From Candidatus Buchananbacteria bacterium (lineage in GTDB: Bacteria; Patescibacteriota; Patescibacteriia; 2-01-FULL-39-33): a stretch of 33,852 bases of DNA. The notes beneath the pieces were generated by a model that worked only from the letters and a program-made list of their open reading frames with translations, was not told the origin of the DNA and made no database searches. This document shows positions 893 through 22,000 of this stretch, one piece after another. Location: NCBI GenBank assembly GCA_903888345.1, contig CAISTG010000003.1, forward strand, positions 1 through 33,852, in the 5' to 3' direction. The translations under genes and the position numbers were made by a program. The number at the start of each line of letters is the position of its first letter. Positions within the stretch are counted from its first letter, which is position 1.

Positions 893-921
893 TTGACTGA
901 AATATTGGTCATTGTTTCTAA
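893..921 (+). promoter_or_regulatory. Possible sigma70-type promoter for the first LamG gene
   Basis: TTGACT (893-898), 17 nt, TTCTAA (916-921); ATG at 948. Confidence 0.3.
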
Positions 922-947
922 ATTTTTTGCGTTTTTTTGATAAAAAT

Positions 948-3203
948 ATGCGACATCTTAAAACAATCTTAATGCTTTCGGCACTGATGGTGACCGCTTT
1001 TTTGGCATGGCCGCAAGTGATTTTTGCTGTTCAGGCAGATTCAGCTCCTACTAACGGTCTCATTGGTTATTGGAGTTTTGATGAGGGTACTGGAAATTAC
1101 GCCTATGATTATTCGGGAAATAAAAATACAGGTGTTTTGGCTGGGTCTCCTAAGCCTGTTTGGCTTAATGGGGTTTTTGGTAAGGCCTTGTCTTTTAATG
1201 GGTCAACTTCATATATTAACGCTGGTAATAAAGCCTCACTGCAAGCTTTTAGCGATATTACAATTTCCAGCTGGGTTAAATTTAATGGTATTGACTATGT
1301 AAGTTCTACTGGAAAGTTAGTTACGGTTTTGATTAAGGGAAATCCAGATAGTCTGGCCTCATCAACTGGTTTTTGGCTGTCTTATGATAATCGAAGTAAT
1401 GGACGTGGGTTTGGCTATACTTGTTTTGGCAATACTGCCGGCGGCTATGCGGGTGGTGGTAATAATTTTGCCGGCTATACTTACACATTTTCAAATAACG
1501 TTTGGTATTATATTACTGTCACTGTCGCTTCGTCGCAAGCTAAGCTATACGTTAACGGTGTTCAATTGGGCGCGACAAAAACATTTTCTAACTTGGCCTT
1601 ATCTAATGTCTCGGGTTCGATAAATATAGGGGGTTTTTCGTATTTTAATGGCGGGCTCGACGAGATAAGGCTTTATAATCGTGCACTCTCAGCCACTGAA
1701 ATTGCCAGTCTCTATAAGGTTGGTGCGGCTAAGGTAAATAGTCAACCGACGCTTAAATTAACTGGACTTGACGCTGGCTTAATTGGTTATTGGACAATGG
1801 ATAATCAGGATATTAATTGGACGACAAACGCAGTCGCCGATAAATCTGGAAACAATAATATTGGCACTTTAGCTGCTTTTACAAGTGCGGCCTCTGTTGC
1901 CGGCAAATCTGGACAAACACTTAAGTTTGACGGTAGCAGTAATTATATCATCAATAATCAAACGATAAATATCGCTAAGTCCACCGTCTCGGCATGGGTT
2001 TATCTGCCAGGTTATCCGACTAGCGGCAGTTTGGCGCTCGTTACTGGTTTTGCTCAAGGCAATAATTCTGACACCCACGATAAAGATTTATTTATTGATA
2101 GTAATGGCAAAGCTTATTATTATACTTACACCGGCCAATTGAAATGTACCACTGAACCCGCTCTAGCCATCCCCAAAAATTCTTGGCACTTACTAACCGG
2201 CACCAATGATGGCGTCAATAATTATCTTTATATCGATGGTGTTTCGGTCGGTTCGGTCGCTGCAGGAAATTCTTATACCGGATACGGTTCAGCTGATATT
2301 TTGATCGGTGGAAAAGTTAATTATTCTGGTTCAATCGGGTGTGGAAGCGGCAATACCACGCGTTCGTATTTGCCTTCAAATACCAAGATTGATGATGTCC
2401 GCGTTTATAATCGTGCTTTGACAGGAACCGAAGTCAAACAATTGTACAATCAGAGTGCTGGCACAAAAATTGAGGCTAATCCGGTTATCAAGCCACTGAC
2501 TCTTGATTCCGGTTTGGTTGGTTATTGGACAATGAATAATCAGGATATTAATTGGGCGACTAAAAAAATTACGGATAAATCGGGTAGTGGAAATACTGGC
2601 ACCTTAATTACCATGACGGCAACATCGTCGCCAGTTGCGGGCAAGATTGGCCAGGCACTTAAGCTTAATGGTCTCAATAGTACGTTATTTGTGGGCAGTA
2701 CTTCCAGCTTGAGGTATACTGGCGGCGATATGACCATAGCTACCTGGTTTTTTATTGATAAGAACGAGACTACGACGGGCGATCTCATTAGTAAGCCCTG
2801 GAATGGATGTGGAGAATATAATTATCGAATTGTAAAGGGTGCTGGTCGCACATTTTCCATAGCTTTGACTGGCGCTACGGGGTATGGTTCTTCTGGTAGC
2901 ATCCATGCTATTACGTCAAATAAGTGGCATCATCTTGTATTGCGCTTAACCTCGGCAAAAAAAGTTCAGGTCTATATCGATAATTTTTTGGAAATCGATA
3001 GCACCCACGGGATTACCAATTGGGTCGCCCCTTCTTGTGGCGATGGAAATGTTCCTTTGGATCTGGGGAGTTTGTATCCTTACGGAGAAGGTTGGGTAGG
3101 TAATACTGGTTATTCATTTGGTGGAGCGATTGATGATACGCGCATTTATAATCGTGCTTTGAGTGATGCTGAAATAAAACAGTTGTATAATCAGGGTAAG
3201 TAG
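948..3203 (+). CDS. Secreted protein with three LamG/concanavalin-like lectin domains
   Basis: Signal peptide MRHLKTILMLSALMVTAFLAWPQVIFAVQA; three repeats of G-L-I/V-G-Y-W-(S/T)-(F/M)-(D/N)... to ...D-(E/D)-x-R-(L/V/I)-Y-N-R-A-L-S-x-x-E-I-x-x-L-Y; ATG 948 preferred over TTG 912. Confidence 0.85.
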   Translation: MRHLKTILMLSALMVTAFLAWPQVIFAVQADSAPTNGLIGYWSFDEGTGNYAYDYSGNKNTGVLAGSPKPVWLNGVFGKALSFNGSTSYINAGNKASLQAFSDITISSWVKFNGIDYVSSTGKLVTVLIKGNPDSLASSTGFWLSYDNRSNGRGFGYTCFGNTAGGYAGGGNNFAGYTYTFSNNVWYYITVTVASSQAKLYVNGVQLGATKTFSNLALSNVSGSINIGGFSYFNGGLDEIRLYNRALSATEIASLYKVGAAKVNSQPTLKLTGLDAGLIGYWTMDNQDINWTTNAVADKSGNNNIGTLAAFTSAASVAGKSGQTLKFDGSSNYIINNQTINIAKSTVSAWVYLPGYPTSGSLALVTGFAQGNNSDTHDKDLFIDSNGKAYYYTYTGQLKCTTEPALAIPKNSWHLLTGTNDGVNNYLYIDGVSVGSVAAGNSYTGYGSADILIGGKVNYSGSIGCGSGNTTRSYLPSNTKIDDVRVYNRALTGTEVKQLYNQSAGTKIEANPVIKPLTLDSGLVGYWTMNNQDINWATKKITDKSGSGNTGTLITMTATSSPVAGKIGQALKLNGLNSTLFVGSTSSLRYTGGDMTIATWFFIDKNETTTGDLISKPWNGCGEYNYRIVKGAGRTFSIALTGATGYGSSGSIHAITSNKWHHLVLRLTSAKKVQVYIDNFLEIDSTHGITNWVAPSCGDGNVPLDLGSLYPYGEGWVGNTGYSFGGAIDDTRIYNRALSDAEIKQLYNQGK

Positions 3204-3273
3204 TTAGATATACTTATGGAAATATAGCTAAGTTCTTCCTCGTCTTATTAATTTTTATTGGTTAATTTTGTGT

Positions 3274-3279
3274 TATAAT
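3274..3279 (+). promoter_or_regulatory. -10 element (TATAAT, in TGTGTTATAAT context)
   Basis: Perfect TATAAT 31 nt before ATG 3310; same ttttgtgttataata string at 12680-12694. Confidence 0.5.
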
Positions 3280-3309
3280 AGTTGTAGTTATATTAATAAT
3301 TATATTTAC

Positions 3310-6300
3310 ATGGAAGCTCAACAAAGTCAGTATCTGACAACAAGATTTAAAAATCTTGTCTTTTTTGCTTTTCTGATATTGGGCTTGATCTATATCTCAT
3401 CACCGAAGCAAGTCTCGGCCGCCTTTGCTGGTGGAAGCGGTACTTCCACTAGTCCTTATCAGATTACTACTTGTGTGCAATTGCAAGAGGCTGGTTCTTT
3501 TGTAACTTCAAGTTACGTATTACTTAATGACATTGATTGCTCGGATACGATTAATTGGAATGGTGGTGCTGGTTTTATGCCGATTGGCACTTCTTCTGCC
3601 AATAGGTATGCTGGAAATTTCAATGGTAATGGGCATCAAGTCACTGGCCTTTTTATTAATCGTCCCGCCACCAATGGTATCGGACTCTTTGGCTATACTG
3701 CTACGACGGCGAATATTTACCGAGTGGGTGTAGCTGGTGCAACTTTTACTGGTGCGGCCAGTGTTGGCGGTTTGGTTGGGTCGAATACCGGTACGACGAC
3801 CGAGAGTTACGCTATCGCTGATATTACTACTACGGTCAATAATGCCGGGGGCTCGGCCGCTGGTCTGATGGGTGATAGTACTGGCAATGTCTCCAATTGT
3901 TATGCGCGGGGCACCGTTAATGGCGGTCCCAATTCTTTCTTATCTGGTCTGATTTCTTATAGTGTAGCTCCATCCATAATTACGAACTGCTTTTCTGCGT
4001 CAGTTGTTAACAGAGTTAACGGCAACGGATCGATAGCTAGTTCCAACGGCGTAACCAATAACGTTTTTTGGGATATGAACGTATCAGGACAGGTAAGCTC
4101 TGCCGGCGGTGCCGTGGGAACAACAACAACTGCCATGAATACTGCGGCAACTTTTTCTAGCTGGGGCTTAAGCACGAGCACTATCTGGGCCTTAAACTCT
4201 AATTATAACAATGGTTATCCTTATTTATTGAATAATAATTCTGGCCCCGATGTTGTTCGACAAATTGCCACCGTTGCTGACTTGCAAAATATGTCTCAGC
4301 ATCCTGGCGATCGTTATCTTCAGACCGCCAACATCGATGCTAGTACTACTGTTGCGTGGAATGGAGGTCAAGGATTTATACCAATTGGTATTTTTTATGG
4401 CAAGTATGATGGTAATAATTTTATGATTACTAATCTTACTAGTAATAGCTCTACTCGTGATTATGTCGGTGTTTTCGGGCAGAATCGTGGCACCATTACC
4501 AATTTCAGGATTGCTGACAGTAGCTTTACAGGTCAAAATTACGTTGGCGCTGTGGCTGGTTATAATTTGGGAACTATTTCACAAAGCCGCAGTTTTCGGC
4601 TAAAAGATTCATCCAACCAGGTGATCGGATCCTCTTATGCGGGCGGTTTTGTCGGTCAGAATAATGCTAATTCTAGTATTATTCAAAGTTTTGCAATTGC
4701 TAACGTTTCCACGACTTTTAATAACTCCGCGGCAGCCGTTGCGGGCTTTGTTGGTGTTAACTTTGGTGTTATTTCTGATTGTTATAGTCGGGGCGTAGTC
4801 AGCGGCGGTGCTAATGCCGGAATCTCCAGTTTTGTCGCTAATAATAATTCACCCGCCGTAATCACTAATAGTTTTTCCAGCTCCATTGTTTCCAATACGG
4901 CTGGCACGGGCTTCATCTTTAGTTCCAGTGCCGTTAATCCGGCAAATTCGTTTTTTGATCTCAATGTAGTCGGTAAAAATTCTTCTTGGGGCGTGGGGAC
5001 AACTACCGTAGCTTTAAATAACGCTGCCACCTTTTCCGCTTGGAATTTGAGCACTATTTGGAATATCGATCCGAATCGTAATAACGGTTATCCCTATTTA
5101 AGGAATAATGATCCTGGTGCTGATCGGGTAATTGAAATAGCGACAGCGGCTGATTTACAAAATATTGCGCTCAATCCCGGCTTGAATTTTCTTCAGACGG
5201 CTGATATCGACGCCTCTACTACAGCCACTTGGAATGCCGGTGCTGGCTTTAAGCCGATTGCTCTTTTTTATGGCAAGTATGAGGGTAATGGCTTTGTTAT
5301 CTCCAACTTAACTATTAATCGTCCAGCCGAAGATTATGTTGGCATTTTTGGTGAGAATCGCGGTACACTTAATAATTTCAAGATTTATAATAGCCGTATT
5401 ACCGGTAGTACTTACACAGGTGGTGTGGTTGGGTATAATAGGGGCACTTTGTATCGCACCAAGATTTATCGTGATAATATTTTGTATAGTTATGTGACTG
5501 GGTATGCTTATGTAGGGGGTTTGGTTGGTTATAACACAACTGGCGCTGTTCTGTCTCAAAGTTATGCCATTGCCAATGTTTCAACCACTCTTAATACGGG
5601 CGGTGCTTTTACTGGCGGATTAGCCGGTTATAATTCCGGTTTTGTGTTTAATTGCTATGCGCGCGGTACGGTCACTGGTGGAAATGGTGCGAATATTGCC
5701 GGTTTTATTTCTAGTAATATTGCACCAGCGGTCGTTAATAATAGTTTTGCTGCTAATGTGATAAATGGTAATAGTGGTACGGCTTTTATAAATTCGGCCA
5801 GTGCTTTTCCGGTGAATTCTTTTTATGATAGCAGTATTTCTGGCAAGAGTGATTCCTGGGCCACTGGAACATCGACGGCGAAGATGAAGACTCAAGCAAC
5901 CTTTACGAACGTTGGGTGGGATTTTGCCAGTGGTAATGTTTGGCACATGGATCCGTTAGGACTCAAAGATGACGGTTATCCCTATTTAAATCCGCCAATT
6001 CTGCCAGCTATCGAAGTTTGGACAGTAACCGACTTACAAAATATTTCAGTCAGTCCAGATAGTAGTTATATCCAAAAAGCGAATATCGATGCCACAGCTT
6101 CCGCTAGTTGGAATAGTGGAGCAGGCTTTGTACCAATTGTAAATTTTACTGGCAATTATGATGGTAATGGTTTTTACATTAATAATCTTACCATTAATCG
6201 TCCAACCGAAGATTATGTTGGTGTCTTTGCTCAAAACCGGGGCACGATTAATAATTTTAAAATATCTGATAGTAGTTTTACGGGTAAGATTAATGTTGGC

Positions 6301-8673
6301 AGTATTGCCGGCTTTAATCAGGGAACTATTTATCGCAGCCAAAGTTATCGCCTAAATAATTCCTCCAATCAAGTTACTGGTTTATATAATGTTGGTGGTT
6401 TAGTGGGTTATAATAATACAGTTGGCGTGATATCACAAAGTTACGCTATTTCTAATGTTAACACTACTTTAAATAGTAATGGTGCGTATACTGGTGGTTT
6501 GGCTGGCTATAATGCTGGCACAGTTGCTAACTGTTATGCTCGCGGTTCGGTTACTGGCGGATCTAGCTCTGCTATAGCCGGCTTAATTGGAGCAAATATT
6601 TCACCGGCTAGCGTTAGTAATAGTTTTGCTGCCTCAATTATTAATGGTGCTAGTGGTGCCGGTCTAATTGATACTCAAAGTGCTTTGCCAATTAACTCAT
6701 TTTGGGATTTGACTGTGTCGACGAAGCCTGGTTCATCGGGGGGAACGGGAGTGTCCACGGCCAGCATGCAAACGCAGTCCACTTTTACTGGCGTGGGTTG
6801 GGATTTTTCTACTATTTGGGGGATGCAACCGGCCGAAAATTCTAATTATCCCTATTTGTTAGCGACCGCTCCTAGTTATTTTTCCTTAATTATTACTCAT
6901 GTTAATGGCGCCGTAACTGTTGATGGGTCTCCATATACAGTACCGCTTAGTTACGCCTCGGGCACTTCAGTGGCGTTAGTGGCTACTCCAAGTTCCGGTT
7001 TTTCCTTTACCAACTGGGAAAACGCCATGACTAGCACCAATCGCAGTCTATTAATCGATAGCAATAAAACTATCGTTGCTACTTTTGACATTGCAAATTA
7101 TACTTTAAGCTATACTGCCGGCAACAATGGGAGTATTATTGGTAGTTCTACTCAAGTGGTCAGTTATGGTGCCACTGGGACTGTCGTCACTGCCAGCTCC
7201 TCGATTGGGCATTATTTTGCTAATTGGTCTGATGGCTATTTAAATGCCACCAGAACTGATGCTAATGTTACCTCGAGTTTATCAGTGACAGCTAATTTTG
7301 CTACAAATACCTATACTTTTATTTATATGGCTGGTGCCAATGGTTTGCTGGTTGGCAGTTCTACTCAGACCGTTGAGTATGGTAGCAGCAGCTCGGCGGT
7401 GACGGCAGTTGCTAACAGCGGCTATCGCTTTGTTAAATGGAGTGATGACTCAATTGATAATCCTCGCAGCGACACGGCTACAGCCAGTGATTTAACGGTG
7501 ACTGCCATTTTTGAGTTGATTCCTGTTGTGTCTGGTGGTGGCGGAATTATCGTAAGTATGCCGGCGGGAGTTGGCTCTGGCGCCAGTGATGTAGCAGCAA
7601 CTGCAGTTGGCGGAACTTTGAATGTTGGTCAAATTTCTACTGCCGGAACTAATGTTTTAACTTATATTAATACTTTCAATAATTTTACTATTATTAGTAG
7701 TTCTCACCCAGGAGAAGTTGGGAGCTACAGTTTTCAGATTATCAATTTTGATTTAAATACTTTAGTGATCGCGTTTAGAGTTTCTTCGGTAGTCCAAACT
7801 GCCACACTTAAAAAAGGTGAAAAGCTAAACCTAGATTTAGATGGTGATAAGATTAATGATATAAATTTTACTTTTGTTGGTAATTATAGTAACCGGGTAG
7901 AAATTACTGTCAGGTCGTTAATTGCGCTTGACTCGGTGTCAGTGGATTTTCCTGGTGTTGTGAGTGCGACTGGTGGTACGATTGCAAAGATTAATAACTC
8001 CAATCGTCCCGCCGTTTATTATATTAGCGATGGTTTAAGATATTTGTTTGTTAATCGTGATACGTATAGCTCTTGGAGTGGGGTGGTTGGTGATGCGGGG
8101 AATCGTTTTGCGACCTTGAAATATCTAACACAAGCAGAATTTGATGCCACTCCGGTTGGCGGCAACTTAACTGTTAAGCCAGGTAATTTGATTAAATTCG
8201 ATGATAGTGCGATTATTTATGCGGTCGGAGTTGATAAGAAATTATATCAATTAGTTGACGCGGCAGCGAAGGTTGCGCTCTACGGCGCTGTAAATCCGTA
8301 TATTATTCAGTCTGGTTTTAGAGTTGATTATTTTGATTTTGGTAAACCGGTTGATATTTTAACCGCTACCTCCAGTAAGCCAGATGGCGGACAGGCTAAA
8401 GCCACCGTCACCGCTACCACTCGGACGAATAAATTTATTTTCACCAAAGATCTAGTTACTGGCATGATTAATAATGATGTTTTGCAGCTCCAAAGATATT
8501 TAAATAGTAATGGCTTTATTTTGGCCAAAGCAGGAGCGGGAAGTCCGGGGCAAGAAACGACAAAATTCGGAGCAGCAACACGTGTTGCCCTGATTAACTT
8601 TCAGGTCGCTAATAATATTATTCCGGCTAATGGATCTTTTGGGCTCACAACCAGAAGTGTCATTAATAAGTAA
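3310..8673 (+). CDS. Secreted surface repeat protein: four GLUG-rich blocks, divergent InlB-B-like repeats, C-terminal peptidoglycan-binding domain
   Basis: Signal/TM (LVFFAFLILGLIYISSPKQVSAA); recurring VGGLVGYN/GTISQSYA/NCYARGTV motifs; SYTAGNNGSIIGSSTQVVSYGATGTVVTASSSIGHYFANWSDG repeats; C-term DVLQLQRYLNSNGFILA...TKFGAATRVALINFQVANNIIPANGSFGLTTRSVI is PG_binding_1-like. ATG 3310 preferred over TTG 3268. Confidence 0.85.
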   Translation: MEAQQSQYLTTRFKNLVFFAFLILGLIYISSPKQVSAAFAGGSGTSTSPYQITTCVQLQEAGSFVTSSYVLLNDIDCSDTINWNGGAGFMPIGTSSANRYAGNFNGNGHQVTGLFINRPATNGIGLFGYTATTANIYRVGVAGATFTGAASVGGLVGSNTGTTTESYAIADITTTVNNAGGSAAGLMGDSTGNVSNCYARGTVNGGPNSFLSGLISYSVAPSIITNCFSASVVNRVNGNGSIASSNGVTNNVFWDMNVSGQVSSAGGAVGTTTTAMNTAATFSSWGLSTSTIWALNSNYNNGYPYLLNNNSGPDVVRQIATVADLQNMSQHPGDRYLQTANIDASTTVAWNGGQGFIPIGIFYGKYDGNNFMITNLTSNSSTRDYVGVFGQNRGTITNFRIADSSFTGQNYVGAVAGYNLGTISQSRSFRLKDSSNQVIGSSYAGGFVGQNNANSSIIQSFAIANVSTTFNNSAAAVAGFVGVNFGVISDCYSRGVVSGGANAGISSFVANNNSPAVITNSFSSSIVSNTAGTGFIFSSSAVNPANSFFDLNVVGKNSSWGVGTTTVALNNAATFSAWNLSTIWNIDPNRNNGYPYLRNNDPGADRVIEIATAADLQNIALNPGLNFLQTADIDASTTATWNAGAGFKPIALFYGKYEGNGFVISNLTINRPAEDYVGIFGENRGTLNNFKIYNSRITGSTYTGGVVGYNRGTLYRTKIYRDNILYSYVTGYAYVGGLVGYNTTGAVLSQSYAIANVSTTLNTGGAFTGGLAGYNSGFVFNCYARGTVTGGNGANIAGFISSNIAPAVVNNSFAANVINGNSGTAFINSASAFPVNSFYDSSISGKSDSWATGTSTAKMKTQATFTNVGWDFASGNVWHMDPLGLKDDGYPYLNPPILPAIEVWTVTDLQNISVSPDSSYIQKANIDATASASWNSGAGFVPIVNFTGNYDGNGFYINNLTINRPTEDYVGVFAQNRGTINNFKISDSSFTGKINVGSIAGFNQGTIYRSQSYRLNNSSNQVTGLYNVGGLVGYNNTVGVISQSYAISNVNTTLNSNGAYTGGLAGYNAGTVANCYARGSVTGGSSSAIAGLIGANISPASVSNSFAASIINGASGAGLIDTQSALPINSFWDLTVSTKPGSSGGTGVSTASMQTQSTFTGVGWDFSTIWGMQPAENSNYPYLLATAPSYFSLIITHVNGAVTVDGSPYTVPLSYASGTSVALVATPSSGFSFTNWENAMTSTNRSLLIDSNKTIVATFDIANYTLSYTAGNNGSIIGSSTQVVSYGATGTVVTASSSIGHYFANWSDGYLNATRTDANVTSSLSVTANFATNTYTFIYMAGANGLLVGSSTQTVEYGSSSSAVTAVANSGYRFVKWSDDSIDNPRSDTATASDLTVTAIFELIPVVSGGGGIIVSMPAGVGSGASDVAATAVGGTLNVGQISTAGTNVLTYINTFNNFTIISSSHPGEVGSYSFQIINFDLNTLVIAFRVSSVVQTATLKKGEKLNLDLDGDKINDINFTFVGNYSNRVEITVRSLIALDSVSVDFPGVVSATGGTIAKINNSNRPAVYYISDGLRYLFVNRDTYSSWSGVVGDAGNRFATLKYLTQAEFDATPVGGNLTVKPGNLIKFDDSAIIYAVGVDKKLYQLVDAAAKVALYGAVNPYIIQSGFRVDYFDFGKPVDILTATSSKPDGGQAKATVTATTRTNKFIFTKDLVTGMINNDVLQLQRYLNSNGFILAKAGAGSPGQETTKFGAATRVALINFQVANNIIPANGSFGLTTRSVINK
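6880..7525 (+). other. Three divergent InlB B-repeat-like domains within the 3310-8673 CDS
   Basis: Tandem units ending in NWENAMTSTN, NWSDGYLNATR, KWSDDSIDNPR. Confidence 0.6.
8435..8673 (+). other. Peptidoglycan-binding domain (PG_binding_1-like)
   Basis: VLQLQRYLN...FGAATRVALINFQ...FGLTTRSVI pattern. Confidence 0.75.
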
Positions 8674-8749: not shown

Positions 8750-10186
8750 TTATTTTTTATTAACAACTTTTTTGACCACCTTCTTTTTAAGTGTTTTAAG
8801 AATGGGCACTGGAATTTTGCGGAAGCTTGGTTTTGGTATTTCTTCAATTGCTTTTACGGCTGTCGGCAGTTCAGGTGGCACATTAACCTTAACAATCTTT
8901 TTTTTGATTATTTGTTTAGTTGTTTTTAACTCTTGAAGTTGTAGTATCTTTTTGCTCATGCTCTTTTGGGCCAGGATAATAAATAGCAAAGTCAGTAGCA
9001 GAGTGATGAGTGAAATTGTAATTGAAACCACAGACATGACATTGCCAAGTAAAAAAGTTTTAAGGCGCGCTAAGAATGATGATTTGATTTGGAAGAAGAG
9101 CTGTTTTTGGGTGGCATTGCCGGCCAAATCAATAGCGCGGACAGTTAATAAATGTTTGCCAGAGGCTAAATCCGGAGTATCAAAGTAGCTGTGCGGTCCG
9201 GCTGGCTTAGCGATTTGTGCCGGGCCAACGTCAATTCTGAATTCAACACGGTCAATCCCGGATAGTTTATCAGTCGCATCAAAGATAAATTTAGCGCGAT
9301 TAATCGCTAGGCTGTCTTTGGCTTCATCCACGGCCAAGCTGTCAGGGTTAGTATCATCAATTTGAATGGCAAAGTGAGCCGCAGGGCTCCAACCAATAGC
9401 ATTCTTGTATTTTAAATGGAAGTACCACGAACCATCAGTCAAAAGTTCAGAGGAGGTGAAGGATTCTGCCAGACCCAGGGATTTCTCAGTTGGATCAGTC
9501 GTTGGGTTATTATCAAAACTGTAGCTGACGTCGGTGATGCCATCAGGTAGACTCCAATTGATGGTGGTTGCCGGAATATTGTACCATTTGGTAGCATCGG
9601 GGGTAGTATTGGAATAAATTTGTGGTGCGGAAGGTGTTTCCCCCGCGACCGTCGCGACTGGGCTTGGTGTTGCTGGTTTCGTGGTTTCGGTCTTTACGGC
9701 AGCAGCGGCAATAGTTAGGCTAGCGCGACCCATGCTACTCAATAATTCGGTGCCTTGGCCGTCATTAGCGAGGATTGAACCGCTGGCAAAGGAAATCGTG
9801 GCTGCTCCTGGCGTGGTGGCTGTAAAAGTAACCGTTAAAACGCGACCAGAACCGGTAAAGCCCGGATTAGGAATTACACCCTCGAAAGAAACGCTACTGC
9901 CTGAATAGGCTGGTTCCTTGACCCAGAGCGTGACGATAGAGCCGGACTTACTAATCGAAGTCGGTCGTAATTTGTCAGAAGAAAAGGTTAGTGAGCCAGC
10001 GGTAGCATTAGCGGCGTCGGTTGTCGAAAGAGAAATACGTGCGGTGATTTTATCACCGACTTGATATTGTGATTTGTCGGTGGAGACTTGCAGACTTGCG
10101 GCGTGAGAAAGATTTGGAAATAAAAAAAATCCAACAGCAATGATGATTGTTGTCAGAAAAAAAATGTTGTATTTTTGTTGAATCAT
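8750..10186 (-). CDS. Membrane-anchored protein with N-terminal cohesin-like domain and C-terminal TM plus Lys-rich tail
   Basis: Signal peptide, then LQVSTDKSQYQVGDKITARISLSTTDAANATAGSLTFSSDKLRPTS...VSFEGVIPNPGFTGSGRVLTVTFTATTPGAATISFASGSILANDGQGTELL (cohesin-like); TM VMSVVSITISLITLLLTLLFIILA; tail rich in K. Confidence 0.75.
   Translation of the reverse strand: MIQQKYNIFFLTTIIIAVGFFLFPNLSHAASLQVSTDKSQYQVGDKITARISLSTTDAANATAGSLTFSSDKLRPTSISKSGSIVTLWVKEPAYSGSSVSFEGVIPNPGFTGSGRVLTVTFTATTPGAATISFASGSILANDGQGTELLSSMGRASLTIAAAAVKTETTKPATPSPVATVAGETPSAPQIYSNTTPDATKWYNIPATTINWSLPDGITDVSYSFDNNPTTDPTEKSLGLAESFTSSELLTDGSWYFHLKYKNAIGWSPAAHFAIQIDDTNPDSLAVDEAKDSLAINRAKFIFDATDKLSGIDRVEFRIDVGPAQIAKPAGPHSYFDTPDLASGKHLLTVRAIDLAGNATQKQLFFQIKSSFLARLKTFLLGNVMSVVSITISLITLLLTLLFIILAQKSMSKKILQLQELKTTKQIIKKKIVKVNVPPELPTAVKAIEEIPKPSFRKIPVPILKTLKKKVVKKVVNKK
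9706..10099 (-). other. Cohesin-like domain
   Basis: Residues about 30-160 of the 478-aa protein; FSSDKL, VSFEGVIP, GSGRVLTVTF, ILANDGQGTEL. Confidence 0.65.
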
Positions 10187-10189
10187 TTG

Positions 10190-11092
10190 TTAATGCCTCC
10201 GCTTTAATTTTAACATTAAAGATGGCAGGCTGGCAATGACTAAAAGTAAAATTATGATAATGAGAATTTTAAACGAACTAGTTTGCCAAAAGGCTAAAGA
10301 GATAACTGGATCAAGACGCGCTAATTTAATGTTGCCAGCAGCATCGGTAGCTTTAAAATAATGATACTGTTGAAATTCTGTAATCGGTAAGACGAACGGA
10401 CTATAGATATTAATAAAGTGTAATGAATTTATTTTTTGTTGATCAGTTTCGGGATTAAATTTTCGATTGGAAGTCGCTAGTGCAGTTTCGGTTAAACCCG
10501 ATTGTTTATCGACAATATTAAAAATTAATAAATAGTTATTGTCGGATAAATTTTCCGGTTTGATAATGTTTAAGGCAAGTATTTCCGGTGCTGTTTGATC
10601 GGTTTTAATTTGATCATTAAGTGTTTGTCGCACTTGTTGATCAAGAGTTTGGTTTTTAGCGATTGAAACATTGGCTAGCTGGCCGGTGCCGTCATTAAGA
10701 TAGATTTCAAAATCTTTGGGATTTAAAACGACGGGCGATTCAGAGATGTCGTTGTTAGAATTACAAGTGATAGTAGCAATTGACCCAGTGCCAGTATAGC
10801 CGCCGGGAATGATTCCAGCAAAAGAAATTTCGCCATTGTTACTCGCCGGGCTATTAATCCAAGTGTTGATAATTGAACTTGCTCCCGATTGAACAGTACA
10901 TTCGCGTTCAGTCGGTGTAAAAAAAATTTTTCCTGCCAAGGTATTGATACTGGTAGCTCCTGTATCGATGGTTACTGTTACTGCTGTCTTAGTTGGCGTT
11001 TCATTGTCAGTAACCAAATAAAGCGAAACAGCGCCGGCCGAGTGGGCGACAAATAAGAGCGCGAGTGAGGTGAGGAGTATTTTTTTGGTCAT
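10190..11092 (-). CDS. Membrane-anchored protein with cohesin-like domain and C-terminal TM
   Basis: Signal peptide; VSLYLVTDNETPTKTAVTVTIDTGATSINTLAGKIFFTPTERE...GEISFAGIIPGGYTGTGSIATITCNSNND...FEIYLNDGTGQ; C-terminal FKILIIIILLLVIASLPSLMLKLKRRH. Confidence 0.7.
   Translation of the reverse strand: MTKKILLTSLALLFVAHSAGAVSLYLVTDNETPTKTAVTVTIDTGATSINTLAGKIFFTPTERECTVQSGASSIINTWINSPASNNGEISFAGIIPGGYTGTGSIATITCNSNNDISESPVVLNPKDFEIYLNDGTGQLANVSIAKNQTLDQQVRQTLNDQIKTDQTAPEILALNIIKPENLSDNNYLLIFNIVDKQSGLTETALATSNRKFNPETDQQKINSLHFINIYSPFVLPITEFQQYHYFKATDAAGNIKLARLDPVISLAFWQTSSFKILIIIILLLVIASLPSLMLKLKRRH
10657..11029 (-). other. Cohesin-like domain
   Basis: GEISFAGIIPGGYTGTGSIATITC matches VSFEGVIPNPGFTGSGRVLTVTF of the neighbouring gene; both end with NDGxG. 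Confidence 0.6.
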
Positions 11093-11096
11093 AGGT

Positions 11097-12470
11097 TTAT
11101 CCGGTCCAATAATAAGCGATTATGCTAAAGTCGGCGAGATCAATTTTGCCGTCGCCATTTAATCTTTCTTTTTCGGTAGCGATGATGGCTCCGGTCAATT
11201 TACGTTTATACCAATAGGCGGCGATGGAGAAATCGACTAAATTAACTTTGCCATCTTTATTCATATCTCCCTTCAGGAACTTAACTGTTGGCTTGGCAAT
11301 AATATTTTGGGTACCAACCTGGAAATCAACCTCTTTACCGAAGGGGCTAATTTCGGTAGCGACAGCGGTTTTGGATTTGGCTTTATGTCCGCCGATTTCT
11401 AGAGGTGAGGTGTCTAAGTTATAGAGGTAGGCGCCGTATTTGTCGGTTGCAGTATTGGCAAAAATTTCATTTTCGGAGTTGATGGCAATAACCACACTGC
11501 CATTAGGGACACTTTGGCCAAAAATAGCCAAATTATCGCCTCGTTTGACCTCCTGTTTATCCACAGAGATAGAGGGGGCGATAAATATACCACTAATAGT
11601 CACACTGGATCCAGTTGTTAGGGTGACGGGAAAAGTTTGGGTTAAGGACTGAGACCCGGAGTTATCCACAGAGTTAACGCCGAAATTATAGGTTCCAGGG
11701 GTTAAGCCATTGATGCTAATCTCAAAGTTGGCATCTGGTCCAGATTTGGTGGTCGCAATTAATTGTCCGTCACGGAGTAAGATGACATCGGTTAGCGGAT
11801 AGGCGCGTCCCTTGAATGTTGCTGAGGCAGTTCCACTAATGGGTGGCAAGCCACCTCCGCCTCCTCCTCCACCGCCACTAGGTGGACAGGTACCACAATC
11901 GGCGGGGCAGCTAGAACAGGTCTCGCCACCATTACAATTGCCATTGCCGCAAGCCGGAGTCATTGGTGTTGCTGAAACTTGAGTCGAAGTAGCGATGTCA
12001 TTATTTAAATTATCTTTGACTTTGATGACAAAATAATAAGGCGTGTCATTGGTTAGTCCGGATTTGGTATAAGTGGTGACAGCACCGACACTAGTAAAAG
12101 TATATGGCCCACCAGAGGTTGTTGACCAGCCAACAGAATAGCCGGAAACAGTCCAACCAAGTATGCCGATCGCTGGTGTCCAACTGAGGGCGACTTGGTG
12201 ATTGCCGGCGGTGGCGGCAATAATGGGAGTGTTGACCATCGGGAAGTATAACCAGCCGGCTTTAAGATTGAAATCACTAGACTGGCTAGGACCGATGCTG
12301 ATTTGTGAGATCGCTCCGCTTAATTGAAAATTAGTCGAAGCAGAATAACCACCGGGTGCTATGGCGCTATCAAGAACTTTCATAGTTGCCGAAGCAAAAT
12401 AAACCACTGGGCAAAAAAATGCCAGTGAGATAATTATGGTAGCTAATGAAATTTTAAAAAGTCGCTGCAC
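11097..12470 (-). CDS. Secreted protein with FN3 domain, Cys cluster, carboxypeptidase-regulatory-like segment and C-terminal type I dockerin
   Basis: GTG start; FN3 (NHQVALSWTPAIGILGWTVSGYSVGWSTTSGGPYT...LTNDTPYYFVIKVKD); CGNGNCNGGETCSSCPADCGTC; poly-Gly; C-term GDMNKDGKVNLVDFSIAAYWYK...LNGDGKIDLADFSIIAYYW. Confidence 0.8.
   Translation of the reverse strand: MQRLFKISLATIIISLAFFCPVVYFASATMKVLDSAIAPGGYSASTNFQLSGAISQISIGPSQSSDFNLKAGWLYFPMVNTPIIAATAGNHQVALSWTPAIGILGWTVSGYSVGWSTTSGGPYTFTSVGAVTTYTKSGLTNDTPYYFVIKVKDNLNNDIATSTQVSATPMTPACGNGNCNGGETCSSCPADCGTCPPSGGGGGGGGGLPPISGTASATFKGRAYPLTDVILLRDGQLIATTKSGPDANFEISINGLTPGTYNFGVNSVDNSGSQSLTQTFPVTLTTGSSVTISGIFIAPSISVDKQEVKRGDNLAIFGQSVPNGSVVIAINSENEIFANTATDKYGAYLYNLDTSPLEIGGHKAKSKTAVATEISPFGKEVDFQVGTQNIIAKPTVKFLKGDMNKDGKVNLVDFSIAAYWYKRKLTGAIIATEKERLNGDGKIDLADFSIIAYYWTG
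11100..11278 (-). other. Type I dockerin domain (two F-hand-like repeats)
   Basis: DMNKDGKVNLVDF and RLNGDGKIDLADF; second loop has Arg where the first Asp ligand would be. Confidence 0.75.
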
Positions 12471-12693: not shown

Positions 12694-12707
12694 AAATACA
12701 TTATACC

Positions 12708-12827
12708 ATGAGAAAAATAATTTCTCAATCGCAAAAATCATGGAAGGTGGCTGCGACTGGTGTTTTAAAAAAAAGATGTGACAGTGTAGATATTTTCGTC
12801 ATTCTACCGCTGTCATTCCGGGCTTGA
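12708..12827 (+). CDS. Short ORF (39 aa), possibly leader peptide or truncated gene remnant
   Basis: MRKIISQSQKSWKVAATGVLKKRCDSVDIFVILPLSFRA; ATG 15 nt after TATAAT; stop TGA lies inside repeat element 12812-12883. Confidence 0.25.
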   Translation: MRKIISQSQKSWKVAATGVLKKRCDSVDIFVILPLSFRA

Positions 12828-13030: not shown

Positions 13031-16000
13031 ATGTTCTCGTTGCACAAAAAAAGAAAATCTAACATTTTATCTAAATTTGGCGTTTTATTTATTATCGCCT
13101 TAGTTTTTTTTGTCTCAAATTTTATTTCTGTTGTTCAGGCCGCTGAGGTACCGACGATAATTGGTTATCAAGGTAGACTGGCTGATGCTGATGGCAATCT
13201 ACTCGGCGGAGCGGGGACTAATTATCATTTCAAGATCTCTTTTTGGACTAGCCCGACGGTTGGAGTCGGCACCAAAGTCTGGCCGACCGGTGCGCCAAGT
13301 GATTATACGACAATGGTGCGTCATGGTTTATTTAATATCAATATTGGAGACACCGCCAATGGCTATCCTGACGCCCTGGATTATAATTTTTCTAATAATA
13401 GTAATGTCTATTTGCAAGTCGAGGTTTCTACTGATGGCTCAAGTTTTGAAACGGTTTCACCACGTCAAGCGGTTGCCAGTGCGCCATTTGCCTTAGTGGC
13501 GGGATCAGTTTCTGGGTCTGGTGCTTCGACCATGGGATCGTTGCAGGTTAATGGTAATTCCACGACTACTGGTAGTAGTTATTTGGGTAATTTGGCCGGT
13601 TTAGCTAACCAATATATTTCGCAATGGTCCGATTTGGCTAATTTTTTGCCCGCTAGTTTTTCTTCATCATCAGCTGATTTGTGGGCGTCAACCAAAGATT
13701 TTACCTCCAATATTTTGGGTGTTTTGGGTATTAATCATGGGGGCACTGGCACCTCGACAGCGCCTGGAGTTGGCCAGGTTTTGGTTGGTAACGCCAGTGG
13801 CGGTTATGACTTTGTGGCGGCTAGTAGTTTGAGCGCGGCTATTCTTAATACCAATAATACTTGGACTGGGACCAATAATTTTAATGCGACCACGACTTTT
13901 GCGGGAAATGTGGGGATTGGTGTTGCAGACCCGGGCACATTTAAACTTAACGTTAATGGTGCAATTAGAACTTCCAATAATTATTTTTATGTTGGTGCCA
14001 CTTCTCCTTGGCTCGGTTTTGTTACGGATGGAGGATCGGCATTGCCCATTAAGTCCGGTTCTTTAGCGATTGGCAATAATTATTCTAGTGCGGTAGCACC
14101 GGCTAATGGGCTATATGTGCAAGGTAATATTGGTATTGGTACTACAACTCCATTAGCCAAATTAGTAGTCCAAGGCACCTCGACGACGCCGTTATTAAGT
14201 ATTAATACCTCGTCTTCCGCCTCGGCTTTGTTTGTAGCAAGTAATGGTTATGTGGGTGTTGGTACCACGACCCCGGGGGCAATGCTTGATATTTATAGTA
14301 GCGATCCGGCAAAATACTTGCTGAATTTGACAGGAGACTCAACGGCTCATGGTCTTGGTTTGACTTTTCTTGATATTAGTTCTGCAGGAAGTTCGCGTAA
14401 TTGGGCTTTCGGTGCCTCAATTGCCGGTGGTTATGGTTGGGATTTTATGCGTAGCACAAGTAAAGGCGGTAATCCCACTACTTTAGCGATGAGAATTGAT
14501 AATAATGGCAATCTCGGTATTGGCCCCAGTTTTGTCACTGGTGCCGCATCCAAACTTTCGGTTACTGGCAACGCGTCATTCGGAACCAATTTTTATAATG
14601 TCGCCGCCCCTGCTGACGGCATGATTATTGAGGGTAACGTGGGAATTGGTACGGCTGCCCCAAGTACTAAACTCGAAGTTAGGGGTGGGACGCTTATCAA
14701 TGGTGTTACGGCTGGAACAGAAACGTATTTACAATTTAGAAACAGCAGCACCCCAGTTGCCTTACTAGGAACTGACGCCAGTATTAGCGCTGGCGCGGTA
14801 GCAGATGTCGGACTTTATGTTTATGGTAATAATAATTTTGATTTTTGGACTAATGCCACAAGAAGACTGCGAATCACTGGTTCCGGCAATGTCGGTATTG
14901 GCACCACAACGCCAACTCAAAAGTTAGATGTTGTCGGCAATATTAACATTAATTCTACTTCTAGCTATATGTTGAATGGAGTTAATGTTGTTTATGGCTC
15001 AACTACTTTATATAATTATTTTTTTGGTGCCGCTGGTAATACTTCTATGACGGGCATTGAAAATATCGCCGTGGGTGTAAATTCGTTTACTGGTAATACT
15101 TCGGGGTCTTGGAATACAGCCAATGGTGTGAACGCGCTTCATCTTAATACTACTGGTAACTATAATACCGCGATGGGTAATATTGCGCTTAATGGTGTTA
15201 ATAGTGGCAGTAATAATACAGGCATTGGCTATCAGGCACTATCAAAAATAACGGATGTAAACAATAATACTGCATTAGGCTATCAGGCGGGTCGTTTTTG
15301 GGCTGACGGTGCAACGGCGCTAGCTACCACAAGTCAATCAGTGTATATCGGATCGGGCGCGATGGGTTACAACAATTCCGATGTAAATAGCATAGTAATT
15401 GGATATCAGGCCAAGGGAATTGGTGCTAATAGTGTGGTTTTGGGTAATGATAGTATTTTGAACACAGCCTTAAAAGGGAGTGTCGGTATCGGCACGACAA
15501 CTCCCGCTGCGCCGTTGCATTTGGCGGTGACTGGTGCGCCGATGATGCAATGGGATCGTAGCGGAACGCAAATCGGCTTGATGACGGCAGCCAATAATGA
15601 CATGAATTTTATTGCCAATACTAATTTGCGTCTCGGGGCGGGCAATATTGGTTCGCAAGTTTCTTTGCTAGCTAATGGTAATTTTGGCATTGGTTCAACC
15701 AATCCTGCTTATATTCTTGATGTGGTTGGTCCGGCAGCGAGTTATGGCCAGGCGAGAATCAAAACCCAAACCACTGGCTGGGCCACACGGCTGTTCTTAG
15801 ATTCCGGCACCTTGTCATCGTCAATAACTTATTATGACAATGTCAGTGGAATGGAGTTTAAAACTAATGGATCCACAAAATTAGTGGTAATGGATAGTGG
15901 TCGCGTGGGCATCGGATCATCCAGTCCGCAATCACTGTTGACCGTTCAAGGCACCTCTACCAATTCTCTAGTGAGTATCATGACCTCCTCTTCAGTCTCC

Positions 16001-19000
16001 GCTATATTCGTTGATGCAAATGGCTATGTGGGAGTTGGTACTGCTAGTCCGACCTATCCTTTAGATATCCGTGGATATGGATCTGGTGTGTCGCAGTTGC
16101 ACTTTAATTCAGGAACTGGTGATGACGGTGGTTATATTAGAAGTAATGGGGGCAGTAATTTGAATATTTCTGGAGGTGCAGCTTATAGTAGTGGCTGGCG
16201 GGCCAAATCAACTGAAGCGGCTATTATTAATACCAACGGCTATTCTCCAGGAGACATGGTATTTTTTACTAACACGGGATTGACAGTAGGCAACGTGTTT
16301 AGTCCGACTCCTCGTTTGTATATTGCGCCGACTGGTAATGTTGGTATAGGTACGACTTCGCCCGGGTCAATGTTGACAGTACAGGCAGTTGCCGGTACTT
16401 CTCCATTAAATATTGCATCTTCAACTGGCGCTTCAATGTTGTATATTGCCAGTAACGGTTTTGTGGGCGTGGGCACGGTCAGTCCAGCGACCAACTTGGA
16501 TGTAGTCGGAAGCGGTTCTGTCAGTACCAACTGGACGGTTGCTGGAAATCTTTATAATAATTCTTTACGGCCATATTATGATTCAGCACTTAATCTTGGT
16601 GGAAACAGCATCGGCGGAGTAAATATTTTGACCAGTAATATAAGAAGATTATCTGTGGATAACTCTGGTTTGGTTGGCATTGGTACGACTTCTCCCAGTG
16701 CAACTCTAGCAGTCATGGGAACTTCCTCTTTACCTAGCATTAATCCTTTTGTTGTCGCTTCATCTTCTGGCGCAACTATGTTTGCGGTTGCTGCTAATGG
16801 CAATGTGGGAATTGGCACCTCGACGCCAGGTGCCGCTTTGGACGTCATGGGACCAATGTGGGTGGGTGATAACCGCACTGGCAGCGGGTTTTATAAATTC
16901 ACCGGTACCGGTGGTGCTAACTATATTCAATCCGGATTGGTGCCAGTCTCTGGCAGTGCCGCGCCGTTGTATTTTACCAGTATTAATAACGGCAATACCT
17001 GGATGACCTTGAGTAATGTTGGTAATTTAGGCATCGGCACAACGTCGCCAGCCGCTAGACTAGCTGTCACCGGTTCGGCATCTGATAATACTAAAGCGTT
17101 TATTGTTGCCGGTTCAACGGATATTCCAAAGTTTTGGGTTAGTGGTAATGGAACACTGGGAACATACATTGATGCTCAAACCAATTTCACTACTGTCCAA
17201 AGAAATCCCGGTCTTTTGGGCTTTCTTGGTAATTCAAATGATTATTTCATGAATTATGATACGGCCAACTTGCGAGTGATTATTGGTAATGGCGGTCTTG
17301 CGAGCAGCACCTTGACTGTCACTGGCAACGCCAGTATTGGGACAGGTTATGCCACGACATCAGCACCGACAAATGGGTTGATTGTGCAAGGTAATGTGGG
17401 CATTGGTACGGCGAGTCCTAGTCAAATGTTACAAGTAGGAGATACCTTAACTTCTGGTTCAAGACAGATTTTCATTACTGATTCTGGAACTGGCCTCAGA
17501 TTATCAAATGGTAGTGGTTCTGGTGCTTACATTCAAAGCGCTGGCACTAATGTTAATTTAGAATTTAGGGCGGGAAATAGTAATAACATGAATTATGTAT
17601 TCTCTAGCACTGGTAATGTCGGTATCGGCACTTCTACTCCGCAGGTTAAATTGGATGTAGTAGCCAGTGATTCTGGTAATACTCCTATATTTTCCACTAA
17701 TTATAACGGAGCGGGTGGAATGTTGGCTTTGCGCGCTAATGGAACTATGGCGTCACCCACCGCCTTACTAGCTAATGATTTGATTGGTGGAATGTTGGTC
17801 AGGGGCTATAACGGCTCTGGTTTTACTAGCGCCTCAAATGGGGGTGTCTATATTTACGCCGGAGAGAATTGGACTGGTAGCAATAATGGCACTTACATGA
17901 CTTTTGCTACCACACAAAATGGCGGTAGCAGAACAGAAAAGTTACGTGTGACTGGCGATGGATATATTGGCATTGGCACCTCAACACCAACAGTCTTGCT
18001 TGATGTCGGGTCAGATCAAAAAGGGACGGTAGCGAATCTTACTGGCGGTGCTAGCGGGGCTAATATTTTAACCTTCAACAGAACTAATGGGCTCAACGCC
18101 TCGGCTGGTATTAATCTTGGTAATGGTAGATTAAATTTCTCTCTGGGTGTTTATTCTCCGACTAATTCGGTTTTGGGTGCTTATTACGGTGATCCTGGAT
18201 CGGGCAATATGGCGCAAATTTTGGCTGGTGCGGATTTGGGTTCTAATACAAGCGTGGGAGTGCCAGGAATGTTTAGGGGAACTAATGCGGGGACTTCTGG
18301 CACTGATATTTCTGGCGGAGATTTGTATTTGGCCAGTGGCAAGGGAAATGGAATTGGCAGTCCCTCAAATATTTATTTTCAAACTCCGAATATTGGTGTA
18401 AGTGGCACAACGCAACAGTCATATTCAACGAAGTTGACTATATTGGGAACGGGCAATGTTGGTATTGGGACGACTACTCCTGCTTCTACTTTGATGGTTC
18501 AGGGAACTTCCGGTGTTTCGGCGCTTAATATCGCCTCTCCGACTGGATCTTCGATGTTTACGGTGCTGGCCAATGGCAACGTGGGAGTGGGGACAGCGAA
18601 TCCTGGGTATGCCAGTTATTCCCCGGTATTCCAAGTTGGCGGATCAAGTGACAGTAATTACACCTCAATTTACGCCAATAATAGTAATTCAGCTTATGGC
18701 TCATTTTTTCAACAATCAGAAGTTTCTGGTGCTACTTTATTCTTTGGAACTTACGGGAGCACAAATGCCGGCTCTTCAATATTTGGTGTTGCTAGACCGC
18801 AAAATAGTTTTATGACTGCTACTTATGGTTTAGCTATTGGCACAAATGGTGCTAATGCTAATCTTACTCTTGGTACAGCTGGTTCAGCTAGGGTCACAAT
18901 ATTGAATACCGGTAATGTCGGTATTGGCACAACAACTCCGCTGGCTACTCTTACTGTTCAAGCAACCTCTGGAGCTTCGGCGCTCAATATCGCCTCATCA

Positions 19001-22000
19001 ACCGGAGCTTCAATGTTATCAGTCGCTGCTAACGGTAATGTTGGTATTGGGACGACCACTCCGGTTTACCCATTGGATATTTTTAACAATTATGGCGGTG
19101 GTACCGGATTAAATATCAGATCGAGTGATAATAATTATCGACCAGGCATTAGACAAGAAGCGATCCGACCGACTCCAGCTGGCGTGGCGTATAATCTTTT
19201 TGAATCTTACATTGGCAATGACTCCAGACTGTTGACTCGCTCAGGAGCCATTGGAACTTATGGCGAGGCTCTCTCATATCCCATAACTTCAACCGTCTAC
19301 TATATGTATTTGGGTGCGGAAGCAACTGCTGCTTATAACAACAATACTTTGCGACTTTATCCCGACAAACGCGCGTATTTTGATGGTAATGTGGGAGTTG
19401 GAGCGCTTTCTCCACTAGCAAAATTGGAAGTGGATGCAGATGCCTCGGGTATTGGTCAAATAATCAAAGCTAATGCAACCACGCCCGGTAATTTGATGGA
19501 ATTTAGGAATAGCTCAGGCGCGTTGCTTTCAAGAATTAATGCAGATGGTACATTTAATTTGAATGCTGGTAGCGTTGTAATTGGTTCTAATGATATTAAA
19601 ACTTATTACCTAAATAATCCTGCTGGCACTACGCCTATTAATTTAAACGTCAATGGTAATATCGGGATTGGCACCACAACGCCACTGGCTACTCTTACCG
19701 TTCAAGCAACCTCCGGAGCTTCGGCACTTAATATCGCTTCATCAACTGGCGCTTCGATGCTTACTGTCGCCGCGAATGGTTTTGTCGGCATTGGAACTAG
19801 CTCACCAACGGTCGCTTTGGAAGTTTCGGGTGCAATTAAGGTTAGCGGCAGTGCCGATATCTCGTATTTGTTCTCGCCTTCCAGTGGAGCGACAAAAATC
19901 GGTCAGATTCATCAAAGTGGTGATAATCTCATAATTGCTGCTGCTGGTGTGGGTAATATTGCGCTCTTCAGTTTGGGTGCCCCAGTGCAGTCGTTCGTCT
20001 TAAACTCCAGTGGCTATCTTGGTTTGGGAAATTCCAATCCAACGCAAAGATTGAGCGTTAATGGTAATATAAACATCAATTCTACCTCAAGCTATATGTT
20101 TAATGGTGTTAATTTAGCCAATGCTTCTACGACATTGGGTAATTTTTTCTTTGGTAACGCTGGTAATTTGTCAGTTATGACGGGTGTGGATAACTTAGGT
20201 TTCGGCTCTACCACTTTGGCAGTTGCTACTTCCGGTTATGGCAACTTAGCATTTGGCAATAGTGCGCTTGATGTTTTGACTTCTGGCTATAGCAACATCG
20301 CCATCGGCACCTCTTCTTTGACCGCTTTGACGACTGGGTATAATAATATTGCGCTAGGCAATTGGTCTGGTGGCAATTTGACGACTGGTTATAACAATAT
20401 TCTGATCGGTCATGGACTTTTGACGGTGGCGTCAACGACGAGTAATTCACTCAATATTGGTAATCTGATTTCTGGCGATTTGGCGCTGGGCAGTATTGGG
20501 TTAGGTTCAACCAATTTCGCCAATGGTACGACTACTGTTTATAATGACTTCGTGGTGGGTAACGGCGCCTTGATGTTTGCCTCCTCAACCGGGCTCACGA
20601 CCATCGATAATATCGAGCTCGGGGCAACATCATTCCCAACCGATGCCGGTGCTGTTTCTTGGATTGATATGCCACTTACCTCATCAACAGCGAGTGGTGT
20701 GCCGGTTTATTACACTGCTAATTTGGCGGGAAATGCAATTTTGTCGGTGACTGGCGTGTCTAATGGCGCGGGTGATTTGTTGAGTTATGGTATTGGTATT
20801 GGAACTACCACGGCTCCGGCTACTTTGACGGTGCAGGCGACCACGAGTATGGCGGCATTAAATGTTGTTTCTTCGACTGGCGCTTCGATGTTTGCGATTG
20901 CTGGTAATGGTAATGTAGGAATTGGAACTAGTACTCCGAGTTATGGCTTTGATATCTATTCTAATCTTAGCGCCACAATGCGAATTAAATCAGGCAACAG
21001 TCGTGGCGATGCTCTTATTTATTTGGATCGAGATGCGCAAGCCGTCGCCTATGATAGTGCGGGTATTATCTACCAGTCTAATGGATCAACTAACTGGTTC
21101 TCTGGTATTCCTTATAACAGCGGAGCACCAACCTCGCAATTTGTCATTGGTAGCGATAATACGCTGGCTAATTCCAAGTTTACTATTTTGTCTAATGGTA
21201 ATGTCGGCATCGGCACTTCTACACCATTACAACGATTAGATGTTAATGGGAGTATTGCCATTGAGGGTAGTAATAGCATTATTTTTGGCAATGGCGTTAA
21301 CGGCGATTGGTCTTTTGCTGCTCAAAATTCTAATGTCGTGTGGCAACCAACTAGCAATTCTGTGGCTCGTACTTTGGCGATTAAAAATAGCGGTGGAGGA
21401 GTTGCGTTTGGTTTTTATCCTAATGGCACCCATCCAAGTTTTGATTTGGTCGCCGGCAGTTATATCTATTCAGATACCAATGCGACGAGCGCGATACAGT
21501 TCACTAATTCAGATAATAGCGCCGTCTTAATGAATTTTGATACGGTTAATAACCGAATTGGTATCGGTACATCGACCGCCACGGCCACGTTAACGGTACA
21601 AGCCACCTCTAGCATTTCTGCCTTGAGCGTTGTTTCTTCATCCGGGGCGTCAATGTTTACTATAGCGGGTAATGGTAATGTGGGGATTGGGACGACAAGT
21701 ACTCAGTATTTGTTTGATGTGGCTAAGGGAACAAGTGCGACTGCTCGTTTCTGGGATCAGACTGCGGGCACAGGAGCCACCCGTGTTGTAATAAAAGGCG
21801 GTGCTGCGGATACTATTGCATCTACTCTTTTGGCAATTGATGGATTTGCGGGAACTGGGCATATCAATTTTTCAGCAGATGCTAACGGAGGACAAGCCGT
21901 ATTTGCTGATAATGCTAATGGTCCAGGATTAAAACTGGGCGATGGGGGTGTTACTGTAAAAAGTAGTGGCTTTTTAGTTTTTACGACAGGGGACACTAAT

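Follow-up and report, generated by a model that had tools for sequence, protein, structure and literature searches.

A conserved cohesin-dockerin operon as a probable non-catalytic connector of the cell surface in candidate phyla radiation bacteria

Does the presence of cohesin and dockerin genes in the genome of a candidate phyla radiation (CPR) bacterium signify a cellulosome? The question is raised by a stretch of 33,852 nucleotides (hereafter the window), which is an entire contig (C3; CAISTG010000003.1) of a Candidatus Buchananbacteria genome (GCA_903888345.1; 1.39 Mb in 66 contigs, 98.5% complete). An initial annotation of the window had described an operon in which a dockerin protein is followed by two cohesin-like membrane proteins, and had proposed that the latter display the former. 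How CPR bacteria build their surfaces and grip their partners is largely unknown, and few of them can be cultivated; against this background, three genes that recur together, and whose predicted interface can be named, offer a concrete handle on specific partners, residues and two compatibility classes. From the sequences and predicted structures, we favour the view that the operon supplies the CPR cell surface with a cohesin-dockerin connector that is complete in itself and non-catalytic. A likely misreading is thereby corrected: cohesins and dockerins in a CPR genome need not signify a cellulosome.

We confirmed that the reported arrangement of three closely spaced minus-strand genes is real. 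In transcript order, P0001 is separated from P0002 by 4 nt, and P0002 from P0003 by 3 nt. The genes and the parts of their products are the following (positions in the window, then residues).

11097..12470, minus strand: P0001, dockerin protein of 457 aa, encoded by the leading gene of the operon, which starts with GTG (open reading frame (ORF) call and domain matches)
12387..12470, minus strand: P0001 signal peptide, about residues 1-28 (sequence; the sole hydrophobic segment spans 3-30)
12009..12212, minus strand: P0001 FN3 domain, residues 87-154 (PF00041, 25.8 bits, cut-off 25)
11625..11819, minus strand: P0001 Ig-like (Big_6-like) domain, residues 218-282 (PF17936, 21.7 bits, below the cut-off of 27.6)
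11100..11270, minus strand: P0001 type I dockerin, residues 401-457, two F-hand repeats (PF00404 match and PDB profile matches)
10190..11092, minus strand: P0002, small cohesin-membrane protein of 300 aa (AlphaFold mean predicted local distance difference test (pLDDT) 89.8, predicted template modelling score (pTM) 0.73)
10655..11023, minus strand: P0002 cohesin domain, residues 24-146 (family profile 85 bits; Foldseek 2w1n, 6kgf, 2xdh)
10199..10306, minus strand: P0002 C-terminal membrane segment, residues 263-298 (hydropathy; helix in the model)
8750..10186, minus strand: P0003, large cohesin-membrane protein of 478 aa (AlphaFold mean pLDDT 85.7)
9710..10102, minus strand: P0003 cohesin domain, residues 29-159 (family profile 139 bits; Foldseek rank 1 is 2w1n)
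9089..9211, minus strand: P0003 membrane-adjoining Ig-like domain, residues 326-366 (PF19077, 28 bits, cut-off 27)
8954..9061, minus strand: P0003 membrane segment, residues 376-411 (hydropathy; helix 371-431 in the model)
8753..8953, minus strand: P0003 Lys-rich tail, residues 412-478, 67 residues after the membrane segment, presumably cytoplasmic

In P0001, the signal peptide is followed by an FN3 domain, then by a linker rich in Cys and Gly, two Ig-like domains and, at the C-terminus, the dockerin. It is thus the secreted FN3 protein with a terminal two-repeat dockerin that had been annotated, with both fn3 and Dockerin_1 above their Pfam cut-offs. Dockerin_1 (PF00404) matches residues 400-452 with 23.6 bits (cut-off 22.9) and is found in 50 of the 52 relatives of P0001, and a profile search of the PDB with this dockerin retrieved type I dockerins. 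The PF17936 Ig-like domain is matched in 48/52 relatives. Hydropathy reveals no membrane segment in P0001 beyond the signal peptide, and hence no anchor of its own. We took as calcium-binding two 12-residue loops with Asp or Asn at positions 1, 3, 5, 9 and 12. The first loop of P0001 has the complete ligand set, and the second (ERLNGDGKIDLAD) has Arg instead of Asp at position 1. Among 105 dockerins, the 29 with the longest inter-repeat spacer all lack Asp at this position of loop 2, and the remaining 76 have Asp or Asn there.

Are the partners of P0001 cohesins? The proposed search with Pfam Cohesin (PF00963) left both window proteins under the cut-off of 24.1 bits, with 14.8 bits for P0003 and no match for P0002. 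Among relatives, the same model (E up to 0.1) matches 18 of 47 P0003 proteins and 7 of 45 P0002 proteins, the best being a P0003 relative (5.6e-9). We built AlphaFold models of both proteins from alignments of relatives, and the cohesin part of the P0003 model has a pLDDT of about 95-98. For both proteins the first PDB match in Foldseek is 2w1n, the cohesin-FN3 module of Clostridium perfringens GH84C (E 2.3e-11 for P0003, 4.5e-6 for P0002). P0002 further matches the CaDoc-CaCohA2 complexes 6kgf/6kge (target TM-score of 0.69 against 6kge_A), the non-cellulosomal cohesin 2xdh of Archaeoglobus fulgidus and type II cohesins. Against the PDB sequences, the cohesin profiles gave weak matches to the scaffoldin cohesins 5m2o and 5aoz, and the single P0003 sequence gave nothing useful. 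By modelled fold and through their relatives, the domains of P0002 and P0003 are cohesins. The cohesin fold, whose absence had been named as a ground for rejecting the proposal, is predicted in both membrane proteins, since both models match solved cohesins. The Pfam threshold as sole criterion is misleading for such divergent members, for which the fold and the relatives are required. Both proteins also carry Ig-like sequence and, as read from their sequences, a signal peptide as in P0001. The annotated pair of receptors with signal peptide, cohesin-like domain and C-terminal membrane segment therefore stands, except that the membrane segment of P0003 is not terminal: the Lys-rich tail follows, and the last 70 residues contain 20 K/R and 4 D/E.

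The scores below the Pfam cut-off would suit an explanation in which the operon merely co-expresses Ig-rich surface proteins, with no binding between the dockerin and the cohesin-like domains. We regard this as improbable given the fold matches, the gene order and the matched size swaps described below.

The gene order is not particular to this genome. Of 381 genomes of the class, 140 have a member of the P0003 family, and the P0003 cohesin domain is found in 96 of 380 genomes of the phylum. We searched for related loci with five alignment rows. The named relatives are Vogel-, Portnoy-, Uhr-, Magasanik-, Falkow-, Komeili-, Wolfe-, Yanofsky-, Kaiser- and Nomurabacteria and other Parcubacteria-type metagenome-assembled genomes, in line with the CPR origin first suspected. 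The census of gene order covered 151 non-redundant loci with 160 cohesin clusters, the loci being picked by their cohesin and not by their dockerin. A dockerin ORF lies directly upstream on the same strand in 118 of the 160 clusters (median gap 2 nt) and one ORF away in a further 9, while 11 clusters start at a contig edge. In the resulting 127 linked operons the dockerin comes first, followed by two cohesin genes (104 operons), three (12) or one (11). In a phylum-wide sample also picked by cohesin, a dockerin was present in 20/20 further loci. The dockerin is the most conserved part, with a mean column identity of 68%, against 62% and 39% for the cohesins. Because the identical order recurs in more than 100 distinct loci, the operon is far beyond chance, and on the strength of its conservation among relatives we rejected both spurious ORFs and a peculiarity of a single assembly as explanations. 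The initial picture of a solitary minimal pair has to be abandoned, since the operon is phylum-wide and a second pair lies on another contig of the same genome.

We then asked whether dockerin and cohesins change together, using mutual information corrected for column averages in 107 operon pairs, with the dockerin compared to each cohesin. The top covarying dockerin residues are Y21, A18 and A52, all with V104 of P0003. In repeat 1, A18 occupies loop position 17 and Y21 loop position 20; A52 occupies position 17 in repeat 2. In the small cohesin, the homologous I74 gave identical top pairs, found independently, and A61 of P0003 likewise covaries with the dockerin. The sites follow a size complementarity: Ala in the dockerin goes with Ile or Val in the cohesin in 70 pairs, a bulky residue (Leu, Ile or Met) with Gly or Ala in 35, and other combinations make up 2. 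We mapped the switches on a tree inferred from the Ig domains only; two misaligned dockerin rows (L188 and L079) were excluded here, in the coupling control and in the strand-face test. There are 4 inferred switches at one site and 5 at the other, and 4 of the branches are common to both; random placement gave a mean of 0.16 common branches and never reached 4 in 10,000 draws. Strong couplings with the dockerin amount to 4.7 per 10,000 in the control, the Ig region of P0003, versus 42.9 and 36.2 in the cohesins. The size rule is obeyed by 49 of 58 held-out pairs, some of them from genomes close to the training set (Fisher p 4e-8), and, in loci L235-L254, by each of the 18 pairs that could be scored. 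Type I dockerins have their recognition positions at 10, 11, 17, 18 and 22 of the loop, and the covarying sites include two of these, 10 and 17; assuming the canonical strand order, V104 and A61 would lie on strands 6 and 3 of the binding sheet. This pattern supports a direct contact between dockerin and cohesin, and the physical pairing proposed at the outset appears likely, given the covariation of recognition positions and the held-out pairs.

Several observations weigh against this interpretation. The Ig domains of the dockerin chain show 36 moderate couplings per 10,000, near the value of the small cohesin, albeit with lower peaks (max z 10), and because of this only the top covarying pairs are distinctive. 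The enrichment of covarying cohesin columns on one strand face was not significant (p 0.12) and is not used as evidence. The two size classes largely track two clades, and two of the four common switches are single tips, which tree error or transfer could account for. Exceptions to the size rule mostly form a third class, with Val, Thr or Ala in the dockerin and Phe or Tyr in the cohesin. As to the operon itself, 22 of the 160 cohesin clusters have no dockerin, the presence of two cohesins per dockerin has no explanation, and loop 2 of the P0001 dockerin is short of one calcium ligand.

If dockerin and cohesin pair, do they gather enzymes? There is no enzyme among the three genes, in agreement with the absence of carbohydrate-active enzymes noted earlier. 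Profile searches of the genome retrieved in total two dockerin genes and three cohesin genes. The earlier suggestion that other dockerin proteins be sought in the genome thus yielded one more, on contig C15 (locus L007:7202-8623, minus strand), and no further dockerin gene above the cut-off. There, a dockerin gene (205 aa) has a cohesin-membrane gene (264 aa) immediately downstream, and the pair lies behind a 1601-aa HYR/Ig protein. Both size positions of the C15 dockerin are Met and the site in its cohesin is Gly, which is the class opposite to that of the window pair; the two pairs would therefore stay apart in one cell. Neither dockerin protein of the genome and none of the three cohesin genes has an enzyme domain, and no scaffoldin with many cohesins was found in these searches. 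For this lack of enzymes and scaffoldin we rejected a cellulosome.

A reduced cellulosome-like or protease complex, whose cohesins gather dockerin-tagged enzymes encoded elsewhere, would draw some support from relatives. CPR Shapirobacterales express cohesin and dockerin genes that were interpreted as a cellulosome (PMC9123182), and some class members encode dockerin-rich subtilisin-like proteins of ~1100 aa, with 9-13 dockerin matches and C-terminal subtilisin-like motifs (L215:5353-8631, L216:6939-10385, L217:4857-8114, L218:3120-6434 and L219:306-3602). We nevertheless find such a complex very unlikely, as the only two dockerin genes above the cut-off here lack enzyme domains, there is no multi-cohesin scaffoldin and the partner gene of a cohesin nearly always adjoins it.

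What, then, would the operon do? The computed basis consists of the domains, the cohesin fold of both receptors, the conserved gene order and the covariation of the dockerin with one site in both cohesins. From these we infer the binding, its calcium need, its cis geometry and a surface display that serves envelope assembly or attachment instead of polymer degradation. P0001 would be secreted without an anchor, and its C-terminal dockerin would plug into the cohesin domains of P0002 and P0003, the products of the same transcript. These would hold P0001 at the outer face of the membrane, where its FN3 and Ig-like domains would stand out as the working part, adhesive or structural. The most likely function is the calcium-assisted anchoring of a secreted Ig-rich protein to the cell's own membrane, in envelope or attachment structures. 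Given its recurrence throughout the phylum and the joint changes of plug and socket, the cellulosome connector probably serves CPR bacteria to keep proteins attached to their own cells, and not to digest cellulose. New orthogonal cohesin-dockerin pairs of this kind would be useful as protein connectors.

The neighbours of the operon in other genomes bear on where the grip is applied. Secreted WxL-like proteins lie upstream of the dockerin in 78 of the 127 linked loci. They end in GxYxxTxxxxxTxxF and are WxL-like by position and ending; none of them matched the Pfam WxL models. WxLIP-like membrane proteins, mostly at position -1 to the dockerin and in operon with it (L044:3745-4776 and equivalents), match Pfam WxLIP_PGBD in 17 of 32 cases (best 9.7e-8). 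No such genes adjoin the window operon. The same sequence evidence would also fit adhesion in trans, in which the secreted dockerin protein would first attach to a host, to matrix or to sister cells, its dockerin being captured by the membrane cohesins thereafter. WxLIP-like proteins precede the dockerin gene at many loci, and for Gram-positives WxLIP was proposed to connect the bacterial surface with that of the host (PMC10599100). The essential envelope proteins of the epibiont Southlakia include one with a dockerin, for which host glycans were guessed to be the target (PMC10633639). A partner in cis, made in the same cell, is favoured by co-transcription and by the near-invariant pairing, and our analysis indicated no host ligand; we therefore hold adhesion in trans to be unlikely, if less so than the other alternatives. 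Anchoring in cis could also be part of something larger. We suggest tentatively that a Patescibacteria-wide orthogonal 'socket set' might link a WxL/WxLIP-like outer layer to the membrane and, via the P0003-type tail, to the interior, as the core of an envelope or host-attachment machinery in which bump-and-hole classes separate paralogous pairs.

Is the connector itself new? Non-cellulosomal cohesins and dockerins are established in A. fulgidus and C. perfringens. The solved folds closest to the window cohesins belong to this group (2xdh of A. fulgidus, and 2w1n and 2jh2 of C. perfringens glycoside hydrolases), and in 2w1n the cohesin adjoins an FN3 domain. However, the C. perfringens modules are on secreted hydrolases, whereas the CPR cohesins are on dedicated membrane proteins in the dockerin operon. 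With the type I and II pairs of clostridial cellulosomes, the CPR proteins share the two-repeat F-hand dockerin and the nine-stranded cohesin. Unlike these cellulosomes, the CPR operon has no enzymes and no multi-cohesin scaffoldin; its one dockerin gene precedes genes for one to three membrane proteins with a single cohesin each. A non-cellulose use at the cell surface was proposed for cohesin/dockerin proteins of anaerobic methanotrophic archaea (ANME; PMC9012536) and for the hypothetical 'planctosome' of planctomycetes (PMC6461901). These are variable, scaffoldin-like or peptidase-linked, and lack the fixed dockerin-then-cohesin operon of CPR. The WxL/WxLIP clusters (PMC10599100) resemble many CPR loci in having WxLIP_PGBD-matching proteins in operon with secreted surface proteins, but as described in Gram-positives they have neither dockerin nor cohesin. 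The claim of a new use of the cohesin-dockerin plug is thus not supported as stated, as non-cellulosomal use is known in archaea, ANME and planctomycetes, and expression of cohesins and dockerins was reported in CPR Shapirobacterales, if read as a cellulosome (PMC9123182). The CPR operon is a real, conserved variant of a known connector. A search confined largely to the open literature gave no description of it, and we claim no priority.

Some minor features complete the description. One candidate regulatory element lies ~230 nt upstream of P0001, and an Rfam scan of the window gave no match.

12700..12728, minus strand: candidate promoter TTGAGA-17-TATAAT with an extended -10, 11/12 consensus positions (consensus match only)

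Downstream of the dockerin-cohesin operon, three related loci encode proteins of ~250 aa that begin with a cohesin and end with a dockerin (L202:9509-10255, L210:8375-9121 and L214:8400-9167), possibly adaptors. Divergent from the window operon, positions 13031-25945 (plus strand) encode a secreted protein of 4304 aa with GNVGIGTTTP-type repeats and a Peptidase_S74 chaperone near its end; giant proteins akin to each other and resembling this one are upstream of the dockerin in 13 loci. The rest of the window (all plus strand) includes two secreted proteins with three Laminin_G_3 (concanavalin-like) domains each (912-3203 and 26067-28151), a surface protein of 1801 aa in which GLUG motifs and InlB B-repeats occur together with a peptidoglycan-binding domain at the C-terminus (3268-8673), and a gene of the phytoene desaturase family (CrtI; 30161-31654; TIGR02734, E 2e-131).

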